Below are positions 9,376 through 51,452 of a DNA stretch of 64,000 bases, one piece after another. Position 1 is the stretch's first letter. The number at the start of each line of letters is the position of its first letter. Below the pieces are notes generated by a model. That model made no database searches. It was not told the origin of the DNA and worked only from the letters and a program-made list of their open reading frames with translations. Position numbers and translations under genes: made by a program. Origin of the DNA: an uncultured Pelagibacteraceae bacterium (GTDB lineage Bacteria; Pseudomonadota; Alphaproteobacteria; Pelagibacterales; Pelagibacteraceae); assembly GCA_902597215.1 (NCBI GenBank), contig CACJWU010000001.1:1-64000 (forward strand). Reading direction: 5' to 3'.

Positions 9376-10209
9376 TTGACCGACTCCCTCTCTAATTTAA
9401 ATTACTTTTATTTGATTATATTAATGGTCATGGCTGCAATTCCTGTTGGTTTTTTTGCAGGTCTTTTTGGAATAGGAGGTGGTTTAATATCGGTCCCATT
9501 TCTTTTTTTTATATTTGACTTTTTAAATCTTTCTGGTGATTACACAATGCATTTGGCGGTAGGCACTGCATTTTTCATAACTATTTTTACCTCTTCAGCT
9601 TCTGTTCTCACTCATAGAAAACATAATGCAGTTGATTTTAGTGTTTTAAAGACTTTTGGATCATTTGTAATTTTGGGAGTATTTTTTGGATCCTTTTTAG
9701 CAGCTATTTTAAAAACAAAATATTTAATCCTTTTTTTTTCAATTGTTGTCTTCATATTTGGTGCGTATTTGCTTTTACAACAAGAAAATTCAAACAAAAT
9801 TAAACCTAGATTTAGTTTTTTTCCTAAGGCTATTTTAGGTTTTATATCTGGTTCAATTTCTGCTCCTATGGGGATCACAGGTGCAATGATGAATGTTCCT
9901 ATATTAAGATTTTTTGGATATCCAATTACAAAAGCTATTGGTAGCGCTGCAGCTATTGGTTGGGTTATTTCTATTTCTGGAACGATAGGTTTCTTTTCAA
10001 CTGGACTTTATTTAGATGTAAGTCTGCCTTTGAGTGTTGGTTTCATAAATATCCCTGCGTTTCTAATATTTATTCCAATTACAACGATAATGGCAAGAAT
10101 AGGAGTTAACACAGTTCATAAAATGAGCAAAATTAAAGCTCAGAGAATGTTTGGAGTATTTCTTTATGTTATTGGCACAATTTTTATATTTAGATATTTG
10201 AGTTTATAG
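9376..10209 (+). CDS. TauE/SafE family permease, copy 2
   Basis: A 277-residue paralogue of the preceding gene with the same double motif (F-G-I-G-G-G-L-I-S-V-P near residue 33; in the second half P-M-G-I-T-G-A-M-M-N-V-P, where the Gly-rich core is partly replaced). The same T-H-R/K-x-x-A-V-D-F segment appears in both copies. The start is called at TTG 9376, which preserves the whole first helix; an ATG at 9424 is the alternative and would shorten that helix. A tandem pair suggests heteromeric use or diverged substrates. Confidence 0.82.
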   Translation: MTDSLSNLNYFYLIILMVMAAIPVGFFAGLFGIGGGLISVPFLFFIFDFLNLSGDYTMHLAVGTAFFITIFTSSASVLTHRKHNAVDFSVLKTFGSFVILGVFFGSFLAAILKTKYLILFFSIVVFIFGAYLLLQQENSNKIKPRFSFFPKAILGFISGSISAPMGITGAMMNVPILRFFGYPITKAIGSAAAIGWVISISGTIGFFSTGLYLDVSLPLSVGFINIPAFLIFIPITTIMARIGVNTVHKMSKIKAQRMFGVFLYVIGTIFIFRYLSL

Positions 10210-10224
10210 GTAATTTAAAAAGTT

Positions 10225-10875
10225 ATGAGAGAAATTATAAAAGTTGTAAAAGAGAAACTTGTAGCCAAATATTTAAAAGATGGCTCTATTAAAAATTACA
10301 CAAAGAAGGCTAAGAAATTTAAGCCCAGAATAAAAGCAAGAATAAGAAAAAACAAAAAAATTATTGGTAAAAATATTGATCACTTTTTTGATTGGATTAA
10401 AGGTGCAGAGTTAGTTGAATTAAAAGAATGTAACACTAAAGAAGATCCTGTCAGACCTGAACTTAATAATGTTTTTAGAAGAAGTTATGGAAGAAAAATT
10501 TTTGGAGTTAAATATAAAAGGGAAATTCATGCTGTCATGTGTTTTGCCTATACCAATGAAATTCCTAAGTCTATTGAAGAGCTTGATATAATGAGTCAAG
10601 ATGCACATTTACAAAGTACTTTAAGAGGACAGAATGTTGGAAAAATTGCAATAGCTTATACTGTTTGGTCTAAAAAAAAAGGTGGTGGTAAATTAATTGT
10701 CAAAGAAGTTTTTAACAAAATTAAAAAATCAAACCACATTAATAGATTAGTCACATTATCACCTTTGACTGACATGGCTTATAAGTTTCATATAAAAAAT
10801 GGTGCTAAATTAATTAGAGTTAACGAAACAACTCAGAATTTTGAATATAAAGTTGTCAAGAATAAATTATATTAA
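10225..10875 (+). CDS. Basic protein with C-terminal GNAT-like fold
   Basis: A 216-residue protein. The first ~60 residues are strongly basic (Y-T-K-K-A-K-K-F-K-P-R-I-K-A-R-I-R-K). Residues about 130-205 read like the second half of a GNAT acetyltransferase: a strand I-A-I-A-Y-T-V-W, a G-G-G-K-L-I-V pattern where the acetyl-CoA loop would be, the strand R-L-V-T-L-S-P-L and the helix M-A-Y-K-F-H-I-K-N-G-A. I do not recognise a specific function. The basic arm could bind RNA or membranes. It follows the TauE pair by 15 bp. Confidence 0.6.
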   Translation: MREIIKVVKEKLVAKYLKDGSIKNYTKKAKKFKPRIKARIRKNKKIIGKNIDHFFDWIKGAELVELKECNTKEDPVRPELNNVFRRSYGRKIFGVKYKREIHAVMCFAYTNEIPKSIEELDIMSQDAHLQSTLRGQNVGKIAIAYTVWSKKKGGGKLIVKEVFNKIKKSNHINRLVTLSPLTDMAYKFHIKNGAKLIRVNETTQNFEYKVVKNKLY

Positions 10876-10909
10876 AAAAAAGGGTGGCTTCAGTCTCCCT
10901 CTACCACCC
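10874..10909 (-). terminator. Minus-strand intrinsic terminator
   Basis: Read on the minus strand, GGGTGG (10909-10904) and CCACCC (10887-10882) form a 6-bp GC-only stem with a 16-nt loop, followed by eight T residues (10881-10874). It lies about 70 nt beyond the stop of the lipoprotein gene at 10983 and would end its transcript. On the plus strand it touches the end of the GNAT-like gene but lacks a T tract. Confidence 0.65.
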
Positions 10910-10982
10910 ATAAGTATATTTTAAGTGATTCATTAAAAGAAAAAAAACACTTTATAAGCGAATTAGATTAAGAATTGTCTAA

Positions 10983-11318
10983 TTATGGCAGATGTTCAAT
11001 CTCTGAAATATCTGCAATATCTATTATATCAACTTTATAAGATACTATAATAATTGGATGTTTAGTTGTGTAGGGAATAGTATAAAGATCTTTATTTTTT
11101 AAATTAAGATTATGTTCATCGGAATAGGAATTAATAGACTCTAAAATCTCAAAATTATTTAATTCTCGAATGATCTTACTAGAACCATAAGATAATGAAG
11201 CTTGATATATACTACCAGTTTTTGCACCAGTAAATATTGGACCCAATAAGGCTGTACCAGGGGCGGTGCAACTACTTAATAAAAAGAAAAATAGAATTAG
11301 TAAAATTTTTTTGTACAT
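10983..11318 (-). CDS. Small predicted lipoprotein, function unknown
   Basis: A 111-residue protein with a lipoprotein signal: MYKK, a hydrophobic run, then L-L-S-S-C with Cys near residue 17 as the lipid-attachment site. A Gly-rich segment follows (G-T-A-L-L-G-P-I-F-T-G-A-K-T-G-S-I-Y-Q-A), which resembles the start of many small SAR11 lipoproteins. The rest is a polar domain ending in V-S-Y-K-V-D-I-I-D-I-A-D-I. No known domain is recognised. It is transcribed alone, with a terminator about 70 nt downstream. Confidence 0.75.
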   Translation of the reverse strand: MYKKILLILFFFLLSSCTAPGTALLGPIFTGAKTGSIYQASLSYGSSKIIRELNNFEILESINSYSDEHNLNLKNKDLYTIPYTTKHPIIIVSYKVDIIDIADISEIEHLP

Positions 11319-11477
11319 AAAAATAAATTGAGTTCTTCTATTATCCGATTCTTAAAAAAGAAAATTTTTAATTAGAGTTTTCCACAAAAAAAATTACACG
11401 TGGGGATTGTATTATCTTAATTTAGTCAATTAATAATTAGATTATTAAATTTATAAAACTCAATTTAAACACAAGAA

Positions 11478-12599
11478 ATGTATTTAAATTTATCCAAAGT
11501 TGTTAATTTTATTTTTGTGCCAAAAAAAAATAAAAGTTCATATTCTAGTTTTACAAATAAGAGTGGTCTTTTGAAATTCAATTTTGCCCCATCAAAAATT
11601 TTAAATAAAACAACAAATGAAATTCAAAATTTTTTCAAAAAAGTAAAAAAGAAGCAGGAAATTGAGAAAAGAAAGCTAGAAAAGAAAAGATTATTAGATG
11701 AAAAAAAAGAGGCAAAAAGACAAAAAAGACAGGAACAAATAGATCGTTTGAATAAAATTAAAGAGGAAAAAAGACAGATATTAGCACAAAAAAAATTAGC
11801 TATTGAAAATGAGAGAAAAGTAAGAATCAACGAGGAAAAAAGGAAAAAGATTGAAACGAGACGTTTAAAGATTGAACAACAGAAATTAAAAGATGAGGAG
11901 GCTAGAAAAATAAGAGAAGATACGCAAAAACTGAGGCAAGAAGAATTAAGAATGAAAATGTTAGAGAGACAAAGAATTCGTGAAGAAAAAATCAAAATAA
12001 AAGAGGAACAAATAGCTTTAAAACAAATAGAAGCGCAAAGAGCTAGAGAAGAAAAAGAAAAGATAAGACAAGAACAATTGAGAATTAAGGAGATAGAAAG
12101 ACAAAAGCGTTTAGATGAAGAACAAAAAATTCGAGAAGCTGCAAGAAAATTAAAATATGAAGAACAAAAGCTACGAGAAACAGAAAACAGAATTAGACAA
12201 CTTGAAATAGATAGACAACAGGAACTTCAGAGACAACTGTTAAAAGAACAGGCTTTACAGAGAGAAAAAGAGGAAGAATTAAGATTAAAAGAGGAAAAAA
12301 TAAAAGCAGATGAACAAGATAAACTAAAAAAAGAAAAAGAACAAAGAGAGAGAGAAGAAGAGTTGAGGAAAGAACAAGAAAAACAAAAAAGAATTGAGGA
12401 AGAAAAAGAGTTAGCTTTAAAAGCCAAATTAGATGAAGAAGAAAGAATTAGAGAAGAAAATAAAAGAATTAAAGAATGGGAAGATAAATTTGATCAAGAG
12501 CAAAAAAAGAAGGAGGAAGAATTAATCAAAAAATTTTATAGCGACAAGCCATCTTTAGAAAATTTAAATAACGAAAAAAAAGATGAAACAAAAAATTAA
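11478..12599 (+). CDS. Long charged single-helix / coiled-coil protein
   Basis: A 373-residue protein. Residues 1-55 are ordinary, with short hydrophobic and basic stretches. From about residue 56 to 355 the sequence is almost only Glu, Lys, Arg, Gln, Leu and Ile, with i to i+4 pairing of acidic and basic residues (for example E-E-K-R-K-K-I-E-T-R-R-L-K-I-E-Q). That is the pattern of a stable ER/K-type single alpha helix or extended coiled coil, long enough to span roughly 45 nm if continuous. There is no signal peptide and no recognisable domain. A tether, spacer or cell-shape role is possible but unsupported. Low complexity will attract false homology matches. Confidence 0.8.
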   Translation: MYLNLSKVVNFIFVPKKNKSSYSSFTNKSGLLKFNFAPSKILNKTTNEIQNFFKKVKKKQEIEKRKLEKKRLLDEKKEAKRQKRQEQIDRLNKIKEEKRQILAQKKLAIENERKVRINEEKRKKIETRRLKIEQQKLKDEEARKIREDTQKLRQEELRMKMLERQRIREEKIKIKEEQIALKQIEAQRAREEKEKIRQEQLRIKEIERQKRLDEEQKIREAARKLKYEEQKLRETENRIRQLEIDRQQELQRQLLKEQALQREKEEELRLKEEKIKADEQDKLKKEKEQREREEELRKEQEKQKRIEEEKELALKAKLDEEERIREENKRIKEWEDKFDQEQKKKEEELIKKFYSDKPSLENLNNEKKDETKN

Positions 12600-12601
12600 G
12601 A

Positions 12602-14056
12602 TTATATTTTTTGATCGTATTCACCGATCTTCTTGGTTGCCTGAAGTAAATTATCTATAAATCTAAATATTTTTAGTTTTCTTTGATTTGATGTTGGACT
12701 TTCAGTTACAACAACTAATGATGGTTTATTAGAAGAAGCTCTAATTAGTCCCCAAGATCCATCTTCAAAAGAAAATCTTATACCATTGACGGTCAATATT
12801 TCTTTAATTTCCTGATTGTCAATTTTTATTTTTTGGTCTTTTATTTTTTTAAATTCCTTCACCATTTCATCAACAACATTATATTTTTCTTCATCTTTAC
12901 AAAAGGGTGCCATTGTTGGCGATTGGTAAGTGGTTGGAAGTTCTTTAATTATTTCACTCATTTTTTTGTCTTGATTATTTAATAAGTGACAAACTTGAAT
13001 TGCTGAATTTATTCCATCGTCATAACCATAACCCAATGGTTGATTGAAAAAAAAGTGTCCACTTTTTTCAAATCCAGCTAAAGCTTTTTCATTATGTACT
13101 TTTCTTTTAATGTGAGAATGACCAGTTTTCCAATATAAAGTTTGACATTGATTTTTATTTAAAATTTTGTCAGTTGAATAAAGACCAGTAGATTTTACAT
13201 CTACAACAAACTTTGAATTTTTATGTGAATTAGAAAGATTTCTGGCGATTAACAAACCTATTTTATCAGAAAAAATTTCGTTTCCCTCATTATCAATTAC
13301 ACCAACGCGATCACCATCTCCATCAAAACCAAAACCAATATCAGCATTATTTTCTTTTACTGATTTAACGATTGCATGAAGCATTTTAAGATCTTCAGGG
13401 TTTGGATTATATTTTGGAAAACTCCAATCTAAATTACAGTCTAATTCTACCACTTCACATCCAATTCCTCTTAGTATATCAGGAGCAAAAATCCCCGCTG
13501 TACCATTACCACAAGCAACAACAGCTTTTATTTTCTTTTTTAACTTATTTTTACTTATCAAATCCTCTTTATAGACTTTATCAAAATTTTTAATTTGTTT
13601 TTCATTACCGTTGCCTTCAGTAAAATTTTGGTTTAAGGTAATTTCTTTTAATTCTTTCATTTCCTCAGGAGCGTGTGTTAATCCTTTTGTGACTCCCATT
13701 TTTACTCCTGTCCATCCGTTTTCATTGTGGCTAGCTGTTACCATCGCAACTGCGTCAGCATCTAAATTAAATTGTGCGAAATAAACCATTGGCGATAAAG
13801 ATAAACCAACATCTTCAACGAAACACCCAGTTGATATTAAACCCTTCTTTAAAGCTGACTTTATTTTTTCGCTGTATGATCTATAATCATGTCCGACTAT
13901 CACTCTTGGGTTTTCTTTTTTAGTATGTTTTTTAATTTGAGTTCCTAGACCTTTTCCAAGATTCGTGATTCCTGGCTCATTAATGTCTTTTTCGTAAATC
14001 CATCTTGCGTCATATTCCCTAAAGCCGAAGGGGTCTATTTTTATTGATTGAGGCAT
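12602..14056 (-). CDS. Phosphomannomutase / phosphoglucomutase
   Basis: A 484-residue alpha-D-phosphohexomutase, close to the ~460 residues of AlgC/ManB-type enzymes. Domain marks in order are: F-R-E-Y-D-A-R-W near residue 12; the catalytic loop M-V-T-A-S-H-N with phosphoserine Ser near 109; the magnesium loop F-G-F-D-G-D-G-D-R near 243; the sugar-specificity region around G-F-E-K-S-G-H near 325 (E-x-S-G-H type, used by PMM/PGM enzymes that accept both sugars); and the C-terminal phosphate-binding loop R-A-S-S-N-K-P near 455. It supplies hexose-1-phosphates for nucleotide sugars, and possibly the sugar donor for the glucosylglycerate genes at 41-43 kb. Confidence 0.93.
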   Translation of the reverse strand: MPQSIKIDPFGFREYDARWIYEKDINEPGITNLGKGLGTQIKKHTKKENPRVIVGHDYRSYSEKIKSALKKGLISTGCFVEDVGLSLSPMVYFAQFNLDADAVAMVTASHNENGWTGVKMGVTKGLTHAPEEMKELKEITLNQNFTEGNGNEKQIKNFDKVYKEDLISKNKLKKKIKAVVACGNGTAGIFAPDILRGIGCEVVELDCNLDWSFPKYNPNPEDLKMLHAIVKSVKENNADIGFGFDGDGDRVGVIDNEGNEIFSDKIGLLIARNLSNSHKNSKFVVDVKSTGLYSTDKILNKNQCQTLYWKTGHSHIKRKVHNEKALAGFEKSGHFFFNQPLGYGYDDGINSAIQVCHLLNNQDKKMSEIIKELPTTYQSPTMAPFCKDEEKYNVVDEMVKEFKKIKDQKIKIDNQEIKEILTVNGIRFSFEDGSWGLIRASSNKPSLVVVTESPTSNQRKLKIFRFIDNLLQATKKIGEYDQKI

Positions 14057-14159
14057 GCTGTTAATTACTTACATTTTTTTCATTTTTATAGTTGAATTTT
14101 TTTTTCACTGTTCTATAAATGTTCTGTTGATTTACATAATATTTAGTATATTAACACTA

Positions 14160-14188
14160 AGCGTATACAACATGTAGTTGTTTTCGCT
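14160..14188. promoter_or_regulatory. Inverted repeat in the nrdA leader
   Basis: AGCG-TAT-ACAAC-ATGTA-GTTGT-TTT-CGCT forms an imperfect palindrome centred on ATGTA: the ACAAC/GTTGT and AGCG/CGCT blocks are perfect and the 3-bp spacers between them mostly unpaired. It ends 26 bp before the nrdA ATG in the 158-bp gap. Position and architecture suit an NrdR-like operator, although it does not match the usual NrdR box closely. A leader hairpin is the alternative. Confidence 0.45.
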
Positions 14189-14214
14189 ATATTAACAATA
14201 TATATTAACAAAAA

Positions 14215-16155
14215 ATGAATAAAATACTATCGCAGGCATTAAAGAAAGCTGTCTCTGAATATAGCCCGGAAGTCAAGGAAGTCCAGAAAAGCAATAGACC
14301 AGATTTATTCTCATTAAATAATGAAACTGAGTTGTTTCAAAATGATAAAGGCATAATAATTAAAATTGATCGTTCGAGAGACGCTAAATTAACAGATTTT
14401 GGTAAAGCCACTTTAAAAGATAGATATCTAGGTCACAATGAATCTTTTCAAGATTTATTTGCAAGAGTAGCAAGTACTTACGCTGATGATAATTTACATG
14501 CACAAAGAGTATATAATTATATTAGTAATTTATGGTTTATGCCAGCAACACCTGTCTTATCAAATGGTGGAACTAAAAGAGGTTTGCCCATTTCGTGTTT
14601 TTTAAATGAAGCTTCTGACAGCCTAGGAGGTATCCTAGATTTATGGAGTGAGAACGTTTGGTTAGCAGCAAAGGGTGGTGGTATAGGAAGTTATTGGGGA
14701 AATTTAAGATCTATTGGGGAAAAAATTGGTAGAGTAGGTAAAACTTCAGGCATTATTCCATTTATTAAAGTAATGGATTCTTTGACGATGGCAATTAGTC
14801 AGGGATCTTTAAGAAGAGGTTCAGCTGCATGTTATCTTCCAATTGATCACCCAGAAATAGAAGAATTCATTGAAATGAGAAGACCAACTGGTGGAGATCC
14901 TAACAGAAAAGCACTTAATTTACATCATGGGGTTTTAGTTTCAGATGCGTTTATGAGAGCGGTTGAAACTGATGAGCAATGGCCATTGAAAAGTCCAGTT
15001 GATGGAACTATTCAACAAACTCTTTCTGCTAGAAATTTATGGATCAGATTATTAACGGCTAGAATTGAAACAGGTGAACCATATATTATTTACATAGACA
15101 CTGTTAACAGACAAATTCCTCAACATCATAAACTTGCAAATTTAACAGTTAAAACATCTAACTTGTGTAGCGAAATTACATTGCCAACGGGAATTGACAA
15201 AGACGGGAATGATAGAACAGCCGTTTGTTGCTTGTCATCTTTGAATATTGAAAAGTATGATGAATGGAAAGATGATAAAAACATGATTAACGATGTGATG
15301 AGATTTCTAGACAATGTATTAAGTGATTTCATAGAAAAAGCTCCTGAGGAATTTAAAGATGCAAAATATTCTGCTGAAAGAGAAAGAAGTGTTGGACTAG
15401 GTGTAATGGGTTTTCACTCATTTTTACAAAAAAATAGAATTCCACTTGAGTCGGTTATGGCTAAAGCATGGAATAAAAAAATTTTTAAGAATATTCATGA
15501 AAAAGTTAATCAAGCCTCTAAAGATTTAGCGGAGGAAAGAGGAGCATGTCCTGATGCTGCAGAATATGGTTATAAAGAGAGGTTCTCTAACAAAACTGCA
15601 ATAGCACCGACAGCATCTATTTCAATTATTTGTGGAGGTGCTTCACCTGGTATAGAACCAATAGCAGCGAACAGCTATACTCACAAAACTCTTTCAGGAT
15701 CATTTAATGTCCGTAACAGATATCTTGAAGAAATTTTAGATAGCCATGGTAAAAATGACGATGAAACATGGTCTACAATAACTACGAACCAGGGTTCTGT
15801 CTCTCATTTAAATTTCTTAACAAACTTAGAAAAAGATGTTTTTAAAACTGCTTTTGAACTTAATCAAAATTGGATTATAGAACTGAGTGGAGATAGAACA
15901 CAATATATCTCTCAAGCGCAATCAGTTAATTTATTTTTACCTGCAGATGTCCATAAAAGAGAACTTCATAAAATCCATTTTGATGCTTGGAAAAAAGGTC
16001 TTAAAAGTTTGTACTACTGTAGGTCTAAATCAATTCAGAGGGCTGAAAATATTAATGATGCTAAATCAACTGATATTACAGCTAATGTATATAAATCAAA
16101 TAACCAACAACAAGGCGAACAGCCAGAATACGAGGAGTGTTTATCATGTCAGTAG
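14215..16155 (+). CDS. nrdA: Ribonucleoside-diphosphate reductase, large (alpha) subunit
   Basis: A 646-residue class I catalytic subunit making deoxyribonucleotides. Visible residues are the redox Cys in I-S-C-F-L-N near residue 127, the N-L-C-S-E thiyl-radical motif near 316, the partner Cys in A-V-C-C-L-S-S-L-N, the P-T-A-S-I-S segment near 465, the tandem Tyr in L-Y-Y-C-R, and the C-terminal shuttle pair C-L-S-C. It is shorter than E. coli NrdA and shows no obvious N-terminal ATP-cone (V-x-K-R-D-G-x-x), so allosteric shut-off by dATP may be missing. It is translationally coupled to nrdB by a 10-bp overlap. Confidence 0.95.
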   Translation: MNKILSQALKKAVSEYSPEVKEVQKSNRPDLFSLNNETELFQNDKGIIIKIDRSRDAKLTDFGKATLKDRYLGHNESFQDLFARVASTYADDNLHAQRVYNYISNLWFMPATPVLSNGGTKRGLPISCFLNEASDSLGGILDLWSENVWLAAKGGGIGSYWGNLRSIGEKIGRVGKTSGIIPFIKVMDSLTMAISQGSLRRGSAACYLPIDHPEIEEFIEMRRPTGGDPNRKALNLHHGVLVSDAFMRAVETDEQWPLKSPVDGTIQQTLSARNLWIRLLTARIETGEPYIIYIDTVNRQIPQHHKLANLTVKTSNLCSEITLPTGIDKDGNDRTAVCCLSSLNIEKYDEWKDDKNMINDVMRFLDNVLSDFIEKAPEEFKDAKYSAERERSVGLGVMGFHSFLQKNRIPLESVMAKAWNKKIFKNIHEKVNQASKDLAEERGACPDAAEYGYKERFSNKTAIAPTASISIICGGASPGIEPIAANSYTHKTLSGSFNVRNRYLEEILDSHGKNDDETWSTITTNQGSVSHLNFLTNLEKDVFKTAFELNQNWIIELSGDRTQYISQAQSVNLFLPADVHKRELHKIHFDAWKKGLKSLYYCRSKSIQRAENINDAKSTDITANVYKSNNQQQGEQPEYEECLSCQ

Positions 16156-48475: not shown

Positions 48476-48542
48476 TAGATTTTACTTATTACTCTTGTTA
48501 AATTATAAATACCAATTGTAAATACTCTTGAAATTCATTAAT

Positions 48543-48589
48543 GCCCTCGTGGTGAAATTGGTAGACACAAAGGACTTAAAAGCCGAGGG
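48543..48589 (+). pseudogene. Internally deleted tRNA-Leu(UAA) copy
   Basis: The first 39 nt match the intact tRNA-Leu at 50595 exactly. The next 8 nt, GCCGAGGG, match nucleotides 50668-50675, the start of its 3' acceptor strand, so 34 nt (anticodon stem 3' side, variable arm and T arm) are missing. The remnant can still pair its acceptor strands (CCCTCG with CGAGGG) but has no T arm, no encoded CCA and no complete anticodon arm. It cannot be a working tRNA. Confidence 0.8.
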
Positions 48590-48600
48590 ATTCACAAGAT

Positions 48601-48640
48601 AGTCAGTCCATAGCAGTCCAAGGTAGTCTAAAACAGCCTA
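48601..48640. repeat. Helically phased 10-bp repeats in the island's left end
   Basis: Three to four units with a 10-bp period, AGTCCATAGC, AGTCCAAGGT, AGTCTAAAAC, and a weaker AGCCTATAAA, lie just inside the tRNA remnant. A lone AGCAGTCCA recurs near the right end at 50413. Ten-bp phasing puts each unit on one face of the helix, as for arm-type sites of a tyrosine recombinase or an accessory protein. That role is inferred. Confidence 0.5.
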
Positions 48641-48769
48641 TAAAATCTCATAACTTTAATTTAGCTTTCAATAAATATTAAAGAATAAGGCTTAATTAAT
48701 TTGTGAAAACCAGCACAAGACCAGCACATAGAGAGATGTAATAATAAAATTTATTTATTCAGTCTCATC

Positions 48770-48814
48770 TTGACAATGTTATATTATAACATTATGTATG
48801 TTATATTATAACAT
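48770..48814 (+). promoter_or_regulatory. Promoter with tandem Zur-box-like operators
   Basis: TTGACA (48770-48775) is followed by a 17-bp palindrome ATGTTATATTATAACAT (48776-48792), then TATGTA as a weak -10, then a second identical palindrome (48798-48814). The palindromes repeat at 22 bp, about two helical turns. With flanks the first reads AATGTTATATTATAACATT, matching the core of the proteobacterial Zur consensus at every defined base. The first site fills the -35/-10 spacer and the second covers the start region, so zinc-loaded Zur would block transcription. AAGGA precedes the ATG at 48836 by 8 nt. Confidence 0.75.
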
Positions 48815-48835
48815 TTTAACACAAGGAATTAATTT

Positions 48836-49213
48836 ATGAAAATTGCGTATGTATTTAAAAGCAATATGGCTAGCACATTCCAACTAAACACTATGATATT
48901 ACCCCAGTTAGAGAAGAATACCCACTTAGTAGATGTTTTGGGTATGTTTTTCTTTGATGACAATATCATGTGTCTTCAAAAAGGTAATCCATTTGGTGAA
49001 CGTTTAGCAAAAATTGCAAAAGAAAAAAAAATGCTTTTGATGGTTTGTGATCAATGTGCAGTAAGAAGAGGTTTAGCTGATGGTACGTTTGAACAATGTG
49101 GTAGTGGACAAGTTAAGGCTAAAGGACTAGTTGATGGTGTAGTAGCTGGATGTTTTCCACAGTTATATACAGCACTAGGACCAAACGCTCCAGATCAAGT
49201 TATTACATTATAA
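48836..49213 (+). CDS. DsrE-like small protein
   Basis: A 125-residue protein with the DsrE/YchN-like alpha/beta layout: a first strand M-K-I-A-Y-V-F, a hydrophobic strand V-D-V-L-G-M-F-F-F-D-D near residue 36, and a strand M-L-L-M-V-C near 68. The closing V-D-G-V-V-A-G-C-F-P-Q-L-Y-T-A-L follows. Five Cys (46, 71, 74, 88, 106), including C-D-Q-C, sit where DsrE relatives carry sulfur-relay Cys, and could also bind metal. First gene of the zinc-box operon in the tRNA-Leu island. A zinc-binding, thiol-transfer or metal-delivery role is inferred from context only. Confidence 0.72.
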   Translation: MKIAYVFKSNMASTFQLNTMILPQLEKNTHLVDVLGMFFFDDNIMCLQKGNPFGERLAKIAKEKKMLLMVCDQCAVRRGLADGTFEQCGSGQVKAKGLVDGVVAGCFPQLYTALGPNAPDQVITL

Positions 49214-49251
49214 ATCAAATCAAATTATTAAAATACAAACAAGGAAATTTA

Positions 49252-50388
49252 ATGAAAAAAATATTTAAGATATTACTAATCTTTAATATATTGATCACAG
49301 CAGTATATGCTGAAGACAAACATGATCATGATAATCATAATCATAGTGAGGAAGGATTCTATAGTCATTTAGATGTAGTTATATTTGCAGACATTATGAG
49401 AAAAGTTGATAAAGATGGAAAGTATAATGAAATTTATTCACACTCACATATGGAGCTAGGAAAAAATTTCGATGGAGGTTGGTCAATCAATTCTAATATA
49501 AAATTAGAGGGTGGCCCTGATGGTGATAGTCATGTTCATGGTGGTTACATAGCTCCAGATGGTGAGGACCACGGTATTAATGATCATATGCTAGTATTAG
49601 AAGAGCTAAAGTTAGATTATGATAGTAAGAAATTTTCTGCTTATTTAGGTAAATTTAATCCTGTAGTTGGTTTTAATTACCATAATTTTCCAGGGATGTA
49701 TGGTTACCAGGCTGTTGAAGAATATGGAATTAAAGAAAAAATAGGGTTTGGTGGTTCAATAAAACATTATGCTGGATCTTTAGGTACTCACGATCTAAAC
49801 CTCTCTACCTTCTATGCTGATACAGGTCCCTTAAGTGACTCTCTTTTTTTTAGCAGAGGTCATAATAGTAAAGAAGATAGTGGGGTAGCAAATACAGAGG
49901 ACTTTTCATCTTATTCAGTTTCACTAGGTGGTTCATTGCCTTATTCTTTTCAAAATAACTCTTTTGTTAAAGAAATCTCTTATAGGTTAGGATTTGCTGA
50001 ACAAGCAGCAGGTATCGATGATGCTACTGATAACACACGTTATTCTGCTTCTATTATGCATGAACATGAAATATCTGATGATCTTGGAAGTAAGATTATA
50101 TTTGAAAGAATGCAAATTGACAATAAAGCTGCTGAAGCTGCACATGATCGAAGTTATACGACAGGTGGATTAGAACTTAATTATCAAAAATGGAACATTG
50201 GATCCTCTTATACATATATTGATAACGATGCGGATGAAGCTGATGAAAGTTTTAATGGAAATATATTTCAAGGATCTATTGGCTATGATTTAAGTTCAAA
50301 TGTTAATTTAAATTTTGGATTCAAAAACCAAGATACTGATAACAAAAAAACTGAACGTATAGGGACAGCTTTAAAAATAAGTTATTAA
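49252..50388 (+). CDS. Histidine-rich outer-membrane beta-barrel (porin-like)
   Basis: The track starts at 49150, but ATG 49252, 6 nt after AAGGA, opens a clear signal peptide, M-K-K-I-F-K-I-L-L-I-F-N-I, with cleavage after V-Y-A at residue 20 (378 residues). The mature N terminus is E-D-K-H-D-H-D-N-H-N-H, a metal-chelating segment. More His pairs follow (S-H-S-H near 69; S-H-V-H-G-G and D-H-G-I-N-D-H near 90-110). Alternating amphipathic strands continue to a terminal aromatic (L-K-I-S-Y), the mark of outer-membrane barrels. No TonB box or plug is seen. The preceding Zur-like sites suggest a zinc-scarcity uptake channel. Confidence 0.72.
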   Translation: MKKIFKILLIFNILITAVYAEDKHDHDNHNHSEEGFYSHLDVVIFADIMRKVDKDGKYNEIYSHSHMELGKNFDGGWSINSNIKLEGGPDGDSHVHGGYIAPDGEDHGINDHMLVLEELKLDYDSKKFSAYLGKFNPVVGFNYHNFPGMYGYQAVEEYGIKEKIGFGGSIKHYAGSLGTHDLNLSTFYADTGPLSDSLFFSRGHNSKEDSGVANTEDFSSYSVSLGGSLPYSFQNNSFVKEISYRLGFAEQAAGIDDATDNTRYSASIMHEHEISDDLGSKIIFERMQIDNKAAEAAHDRSYTTGGLELNYQKWNIGSSYTYIDNDADEADESFNGNIFQGSIGYDLSSNVNLNFGFKNQDTDNKKTERIGTALKISY

Positions 50389-50431
50389 CTAAGATAAATT
50401 AATAAAAATTTTAGCAGTCCAATCCTATTGT

Positions 50432-50480
50432 TTTCCTCTATAATTGTTATAAATATTCAAGAATAACAACATAGAGGAAA
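50432..50480. repeat. Large inverted repeat after the island operon
   Basis: TTTCCTCTATAATTGTTAT (50432-50450) pairs with AATAACAACATAGAGGAAA (50462-50480), with one bulge and an 11-nt loop. It begins 44 bp after the porin-like gene. It lacks a T tract on either strand, so it is not a standard intrinsic terminator; mRNA 3'-end protection or an element-end structure is possible. Confidence 0.6.
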
Positions 50481-50594
50481 TTAGGCTCATTAGATATCTC
50501 AAAACCAGCACATGGATAGATAAATTTAAAAAATTTACTTATTCATCTTGTTCAATTATAAATATTATCATAAACACTCATGAAATTTATTAAT

Positions 50595-50680
50595 GCCCTC
50601 GTGGTGAAATTGGTAGACACAAAGGACTTAAAATCCTTGCCGCTTGCGGAGTGCCAGTTCGAGTCTGGCCGAGGGCACCA
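50595..50680 (+). tRNA. tRNA-Leu (anticodon UAA)
   Basis: An 86-nt class II tRNA with acceptor stem GCCCTCG/CGAGGGC, anticodon loop CTTAAAA (UAA), a long variable arm, T loop TTCGAGT and an encoded CCA. Its 5' 39 nt form the right copy of the island's direct repeat, so this gene may be a hybrid of element and host halves. The nadK start follows its CCA after 4 nt. Confidence 0.95.
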
Positions 50681-50684
50681 CTAA

Positions 50685-51452
50685 ATGAAAATTCAAATAA
50701 TTTCTGATAAAAATAATAAATCCTCAAAGATTAAAAGATCTTTAATCAAAATATTTAAACAAAATCAGATTAAAAGATCAAATCTAGCAATTGTTATTGG
50801 TGGAGATGGCTTTATGCTTCAAACTTTAAAAAAAAATAAGAATTCAAAAAAACTTTTTTATGGAATTAATTCAGGAAATTATGGTTTCTTGATGAATAAA
50901 TTTTCTTCAAAGGAGTTAATAAAGAATTTATCAAGAGCAAAAATGATTTCAATATTTCCATTAGAAATGACAGTAAGTAATAAAAATAATCAAACCAAAA
51001 AGCATATTGCTATTAATGAGGTATCAATTTTAAGACAAAGCAGACAAGCCGCTTCATTGTCAATTAATCATGGCTCAAAAGAAATAATAAAGAATTTAGT
51101 TTCAGATGGTGTACTTGTCTCAACACCAGCAGGTAGCACAGCATATAATTTATCAGTTCATGGACCAATTTTAAGTCTTAACTCAAAAAAACTTTCCATT
51201 TCTCCGATAAGTGCTTTTAGACCACGGAGATGGAAAGGTAGGGTAGTAAGTGATAAATCAAAAATAATTATAAAAAACTTAAATTCTAAAAAGCGACCAA
51301 TTAGTGCTGTTGCAGATAATCTAGAGGTAAGAAATGCAAAAAAAATAGTTATCCAAACAAATAAAAAGATTAAGTTTAATCTTTTATATGATCAAAATAA
51401 AAGTCTTCAAAAAAAAATTAAGATTGAACAAATAAGAAGAGAAACGTCGTAA
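50685..51452 (+). CDS. nadK: NAD kinase
   Basis: A 255-residue NAD kinase making NADP. The catalytic G-G-D-G-F-M-L motif is near residue 39, N-S-G-N-Y-G-F-L-M near 65, N-E-V-S-I-L-R near 112 and the C-terminal P-A-G-S-T-A-Y-N-L-S near 148. The ATG is four nucleotides after the tRNA-Leu CCA end, with no room for a ribosome-binding site outside the tRNA. After tRNA 3' processing the message would be nearly leaderless. It is convergent with the next gene. Confidence 0.94.
   Translation: MKIQIISDKNNKSSKIKRSLIKIFKQNQIKRSNLAIVIGGDGFMLQTLKKNKNSKKLFYGINSGNYGFLMNKFSSKELIKNLSRAKMISIFPLEMTVSNKNNQTKKHIAINEVSILRQSRQAASLSINHGSKEIIKNLVSDGVLVSTPAGSTAYNLSVHGPILSLNSKKLSISPISAFRPRRWKGRVVSDKSKIIIKNLNSKKRPISAVADNLEVRNAKKIVIQTNKKIKFNLLYDQNKSLQKKIKIEQIRRETS

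Follow-up and report, generated by a model that had tools for sequence, protein, structure and literature searches.

Two adjacent genes in a SAR11 genome probably form a laterally acquired cassette for zinc limitation that is controlled by Zur. The cassette would consist of a porin that attracts zinc and a DsrE-family protein that uses three cysteines to handle zinc or zinc-linked thiols. The genes lie in a MAG of the Pelagibacterales (SAR11; G000, 854,626 bases, 72.5% complete), within a stretch of 64,000 nucleotides that we analyzed and call the window. Both are on the forward strand, with a gap of 38 bp between them (Table 1). A first-pass annotation had proposed, from this sequence, that a DsrE-like protein and a histidine-rich barrel are paired for zinc scavenging. 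The pair is real, and the zinc-limitation reading is supported, along with Zur control, by an operator that is common to the pair's promoter and the znuA/znuCB-zur promoter of SAR11 relatives. A promoter and terminator scan of the locus gave results that were no better than shuffles, with no terminator-like site at positions 48500-50700.

Table 1. Features of the dsrE-porin locus, in window coordinates.
Feature	Position	Strand	Basis
Left end of the inserted segment: tRNA-Leu(UAA), truncated (5' part only)	48541..48581	+	Aligned to the intact tRNA-Leu and to the G033 empty site
Zur-type operator 1, ATGTTATATTATAACAT	48776..48792	.	Perfect palindrome except for the central base; 24.1 bits
Zur-type operator 2, 17-mer identical to operator 1	48798..48814	.	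22 bp downstream of operator 1
dsrE, SaoD/DsrE-family protein, 125 aa	48836..49213	+	NF040913 match, alignment, fold
Outer-membrane porin (predicted), 378 aa, His/Asp-rich mature N terminus	49252..50388	+	AlphaFold2 model, Foldseek
Mature N terminus of the porin, EDKHDHDNHNHSEE	49312..49353	+	Sequence, model, His kept in homologue
Right end of the inserted segment: tRNA-Leu(UAA), intact	50595..50680	+	ARAGORN; tRNA-Leu-nadK order in relatives

Judging from sequence, regulation of the pair by Zur-type operators is well supported. Upstream of dsrE, the two palindromes are at distances of 38 and 60 bp. Loci retrieved with the box pattern, almost all of them znu promoters but with a few weaker chance sites, served to train a matrix. 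On this matrix, each palindrome scores 24.1 bits, whereas the runner-up in the window reaches 12.9 bits and 60 Markov-random windows reach 18.2 bits at most, which bears out the first-pass annotation's Zur-like sites. Boxes of the same class are found in the znuA/znuCB-zur intergenic region of SAR11 relatives and upstream of 19 of the 19 SAR11 dsrE genes with readable upstream DNA (one or two boxes per gene, with starts from -37 to -70). A member of the Zur regulon should carry the operator that its lineage uses for znu, and the pair's promoter has it. The zinc reading would have been in trouble if homologues were regulated by other metals, and what we found is the same operator at znu and at every readable SAR11 dsrE. 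The Fur-family protein that adjoins SAR11 znuB is closest to Zur (2e-23, versus 1e-9 for the next family), and SAR11 ZnuA scores above the NCBIfam cut-off for ZnuA (273.7 versus 268 bits). A SAR11 operon with znuA and a Fur-family gene had been noted before (PMC4771312), and no DsrE protein or porin is described there as part of it.

The single-cell genome AG-426-E17 (G367), which is near-complete and carries the pair, shows how specific these boxes are. In nearly all of this genome (about 1.15 Mb), the only standout boxes are at the dsrE-porin promoter (two boxes, each matching at 16/17 positions) and at the znu promoter (a tandem pair, at 15/17 and 14/17); the remaining sites score 14/17 and none scores higher. 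We considered whether AG-426-E17 might be missing the zinc genes, but rejected this, as znuA, znuB, and zur are encoded on its contig 3. Searches of G000 itself detected neither ZnuA nor any gene of the Fur family, probably because the MAG is incomplete. In passing, we also observed that the SAR11 Zur regulon seems to be wider than znu alone. In a second SAR11 family, such boxes precede a ZrgA-like gene with an ABC transporter pair (L090 in G055, 10037-15831; the ZrgA-like gene matches NF047873 at 2.7e-49, just below the cut-off), and they also precede a COG0523 GTPase (L091 in G047).

We identified dsrE in 5 of 61 near relatives and in 17 of 327 Pelagibacterales genomes. Of 399 genomes from the whole phylum, only 2 have it, and one of these is the window's genome. 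The porin is rarer: it is present in 3 of the 327 Pelagibacterales genomes (G000, G367, and G522). Among named SAGs, it is in AG-426-E17, AG-917-M15 (which is G522), and AAA795-F16. In all four SAR11 genomes with the porin, it is directly behind dsrE, and we did not find it elsewhere in SAR11. The first-pass annotation's expectation that the two genes would be conserved together therefore holds in one direction only: the porin goes with dsrE, but dsrE is mostly found without the porin. In the SAGs, the gene order is a gene that we take to be of the DUF779 type, then the boxes, dsrE, and the porin; related genomes have the same locus without the porin. Elsewhere, dsrE adjoins znuA (in G008, G460, G529, and G652). 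Overall, SAR11 dsrE genes have at least four kinds of surroundings, each with a box: beside znuA, behind the DUF779-type gene, among sugar-transport genes, and at the window's locus. This suggests that dsrE and its operator are the moving core, and because most carriers have dsrE alone, the porin would be an accessory. One SAR11 copy of dsrE (G385:C3:24909-25282; L080/L081) appears to be defective: its second match contains two internal stops.

In G000, the best explanation for the location of the pair is lateral acquisition at a tRNA-Leu integration site. The genome G033 appears to have the empty site, with the same permease, tRNA-Leu, and nadK adjacent to each other and without the pair, and in the window the inserted segment is bounded by a truncated and an intact copy of the tRNA, the intact one standing ahead of nadK. 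The genes before tRNA-Leu(UAA)-nadK differ in nearly every relative that we compared, so this is a hypervariable insertion site. A pelagiphage-like contig with a tRNA-Leu attachment site has been described (PMC3861242). We found no integrase in the inserted segment. We also considered a viral origin for the pair, but rejected it, as there were no relatives among viral contigs (for both genes) or phages (for dsrE only). In the single-contig genome G012 (L124), the nadK match has an internal TAA.

The porin begins with a signal-peptide-like segment that ends in VYA, and the mature chain then starts with EDKHDHDNHNH, so the His/Asp-rich N terminus that had been noticed earlier is confirmed. Histidines are also concentrated in the first third of the mature chain (11 of 18, P = 0.014, binomial test), as had been claimed. 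Searches of Pfam gave no convincing family and no TonB plug or receptor domain, and the AlphaFold2 model (pLDDT 65, pTM 0.67) has 16 strands, all antiparallel, with residues 135-162 forming a long loop 3. The models of both proteins are of middling confidence, with pLDDT of about 65. According to Foldseek, the model matches classical 16-strand porins such as VhChiP, OmpU, and PorB. The protein is acidic (58 acidic versus 29 basic residues) and has an HxH motif on strand 2 and a histidine-rich loop 2. All 7 of the first-third histidines in the barrel are retained in the homologue from a SAG, at 64% identity, as are 3 of the 4 at the N terminus. By convention, the N terminus of a porin is periplasmic, and since the His/Asp tail comes before strand 1, it would be on the periplasmic side. 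By the alternation of strands in the model, loop 2, with three histidines and a fourth (H112) at its edge, would face outside, and H64, H66, and E68 of strand 2 would face the lumen.

The DsrE protein passes the NCBIfam model NF040913 (SaoD/DsrE; E = 3.3e-58, 194.8 bits versus a cut-off of 152 bits), and its match to Pfam's DsrE is just below the cut-off. It is not a TusD by the equivalog model (13.6 bits, cut-off 89.25). It has five cysteines, including a CxxC, as had been reported. In an alignment of its relatives, which leaves out a row from the wrong strand (L103), the CDQC motif (C71 and C74) and the GCFP motif (C106) are kept, while C46 and C88 vary. The structural model (pLDDT 64.7) has the DsrE protein 2hy5_A as its best fold match in the PDB, and a profile search, with a profile that included the wrong-strand row, also matches 2hy5_A (E = 0.0097). 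Searching the PDB with either the DsrE protein's or the porin's sequence alone gave nothing useful. In the profile alignment, C71 aligns with Cys78 of 2hy5_A, which is the position of the relay cysteine. This alignment and the fold are compatible with a role in either zinc or sulfur metabolism. The sensing, storage, or remodeling of zinc that the first-pass annotation suggested, the delivery of zinc, and the transfer of sulfur would all fit these data. Given the Zur-type operators and the zinc transporters and chaperones nearby, we lean modestly towards zinc. There is also a hint, from a very small number of genomes, that the DsrE protein substitutes for COG0523 chaperones: using tblastn, we found no match to COG0523 queries in AG-426-E17, and deeper SAR11 genomes have COG0523 and ZrgA-type genes near their boxes instead.

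Outside of SAR11, the relatives of dsrE come from a collection of plasmids and one genome, which is an uneven sample. In Thermomicrobium roseum, the DsrE relative comes after genes for a Fur-family regulator, a metal SBP, an ATPase, and a permease. Copies of TTGAGACNNNGTATCAT are found ahead of the SBP gene and of dsrE, a count that none of 200 shuffles attained. In Thermus brockianus, the order is an AztC-like SBP, an AztD-like protein, the DsrE relative, and a ZigA-like GTPase. The relatives in T. thermophilus and in haloarchaea have no zinc genes among their neighbors. On the haloarchaeal plasmids L108 and L109, the DsrE relative is accompanied by beta-propeller, rhodanese, and YeeE/YedE genes, and this set could represent a separate cassette for sulfur or metals. 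As for the porin, a distant homologue in a Rhodospirillales MAG (L096) is directly behind the gene for a ZnuA-family SBP, in an operon that also encodes an ABC-3 permease and an ATPase. In this operon, a gene for a CHAP-domain protein lies between the permease and the SBP, and L098 has the same order. Most of the distant porin homologues are not beside zinc genes and are missing most of the histidines. Independently of SAR11, the contexts in Thermomicrobiota, Deinococcota, and Rhodospirillales support a link between each family and metal import.

The DsrE protein could instead be a sulfur carrier like TusD or DsrE, with C71 taking persulfide sulfur, in which case only the porin would deal with zinc and the two would have nothing but a promoter in common. 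DsrE would then be under Zur because a shortage of zinc disturbs thiol or Fe-S metabolism. The relay cysteine and the fold are what one would expect of such a carrier, and the sulfur context of the haloarchaeal relatives, as well as a gammaproteobacterial relative beside a NifU-like gene, point the same way. However, C74 and C106 are conserved besides the relay cysteine, the operators and the metal-transporter neighbors point to zinc, and we noticed no DsrF, DsrH, or Tus partner when we read the neighboring ORFs by eye. We consider the sulfur carrier to be rather unlikely. The barrel could be a general 16-strand porin for several cations or small solutes, whose histidines only tune it, and zinc would be one of several beneficiaries. 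The porin fold of the model and its long loop 3 would suit this, and so would the distant homologues in unrelated or iron-type contexts, such as one in Sulfitobacter among imelysin and di-haem genes. But the Zur-type operators, the retention of all seven first-third barrel histidines at 64% identity, and the homologue within a ZnuABC-type operon count against a general porin, and we think it unlikely.

It is quite improbable that the operators respond to a Fur-family sensor of manganese or iron and that the cassette is for another metal. The Thermomicrobium and T. brockianus SBPs are slightly better matches to MntC than to AztC, the Thermomicrobium regulator is not clearly a Zur, and the specificity of SAR11 ZnuA was untested in the study of that operon (PMC4771312). 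In SAR11, however, ZnuA passes its family's cut-off, the regulator is closest to Zur, and in deeper genomes this box also occurs close to zinc genes of the zrgA and COG0523 types. More improbable still is that two cargo genes of an integrated element came together by chance, without any shared function. The tRNA-Leu site is a hypervariable hotspot and dsrE is mostly without the porin, but in three SAGs dsrE and the porin stand in this same order at another locus, closely spaced and preceded by boxes, so the recurrence at two loci already disfavors chance.

We compared the putative zinc cassette to known systems. MspD of Mycobacterium smegmatis is a precedent for a zinc-responsive porin under Zur (PMC13098993): like the proposed porin, it is a TonB-independent outer-membrane pore, and it is induced by zinc starvation. 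But MspD is an MspA-type mycobacterial porin with an unrelated fold and no DsrE partner, and that paper does not mention histidine. ZnuD, described in Neisseria (PMC2895646), shares the role in outer-membrane zinc acquisition, but it is a TonB-dependent receptor with a plug. We rejected this type of receptor for the SAR11 barrel, which has 378 residues, 16 predicted strands, and no plug. Compared to the DsrE/TusD sulfur carriers (2hy5), the SAR11 protein has a similar fold and the same relay position, but also the CxxC partner and the GCFP cysteine, and zinc-type operators. The sister model for SaoD proper (NF040732), from the putative selenocysteine-assisted organometallic (Sao) genes, matches at E = 4.5e-35, but the score of 120.1 bits is below the cut-off of 169 bits and we saw no sao genes at the locus, so SaoD was ruled out. 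The AztABCD zinc system (PMC6689063) resembles the T. brockianus neighborhood, but no AztD was seen beside the SAR11 dsrE loci, and DsrE is not a described component of Azt. In a literature search with limited reach into subscription journals, we found no paper that links the DsrE family to the Zur regulon.

The gene families, the predicted barrel, the operators in common with znu, the genomic associations, and the boundaries of the insertion are computational findings. From these results, we infer Zur binding, the selectivity and flux of zinc, the role of the DsrE protein, and the membrane side of the tail. When zinc is plentiful, Zur would sit on both operators and keep dsrE and the porin off, and when zinc is short, both would be made together with ZnuABC. 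The porin would be an acidic, TonB-independent channel with 16 strands. Its histidines, in loop 2 on the outside, in the HxHxE of the wall, and in the periplasmic His/Asp tail, would attract Zn2+ and favor its entry towards ZnuA. The DsrE protein would be soluble and cytoplasmic, and its three conserved thiols (CDxC and GCFP) would bind zinc or zinc-thiol species or pass them on, a task that elsewhere falls to COG0523 chaperones. The widespread core would be dsrE, with the porin as an accessory, and in G000 the cassette would have entered at the tRNA-Leu integration site.

It is also possible, although we lean slightly against it, that the SaoD/DsrE "ELSE" family is an unrecognized component of the response to zinc starvation in multiple phyla: a cytoplasmic tri-thiol zinc carrier that replaces COG0523 in SAR11, is paired in some strains with a TonB-independent histidine porin that is specialized for zinc, and has spread as a mobile cassette. 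With a role in zinc, an orphan DsrE family would gain a function, and the porin would be a possible route for zinc across the outer membrane of a streamlined cell without TonB. A defined SAR11 Zur operator, together with a portable zinc cassette, would make niche partitioning by zinc testable in metagenomes.
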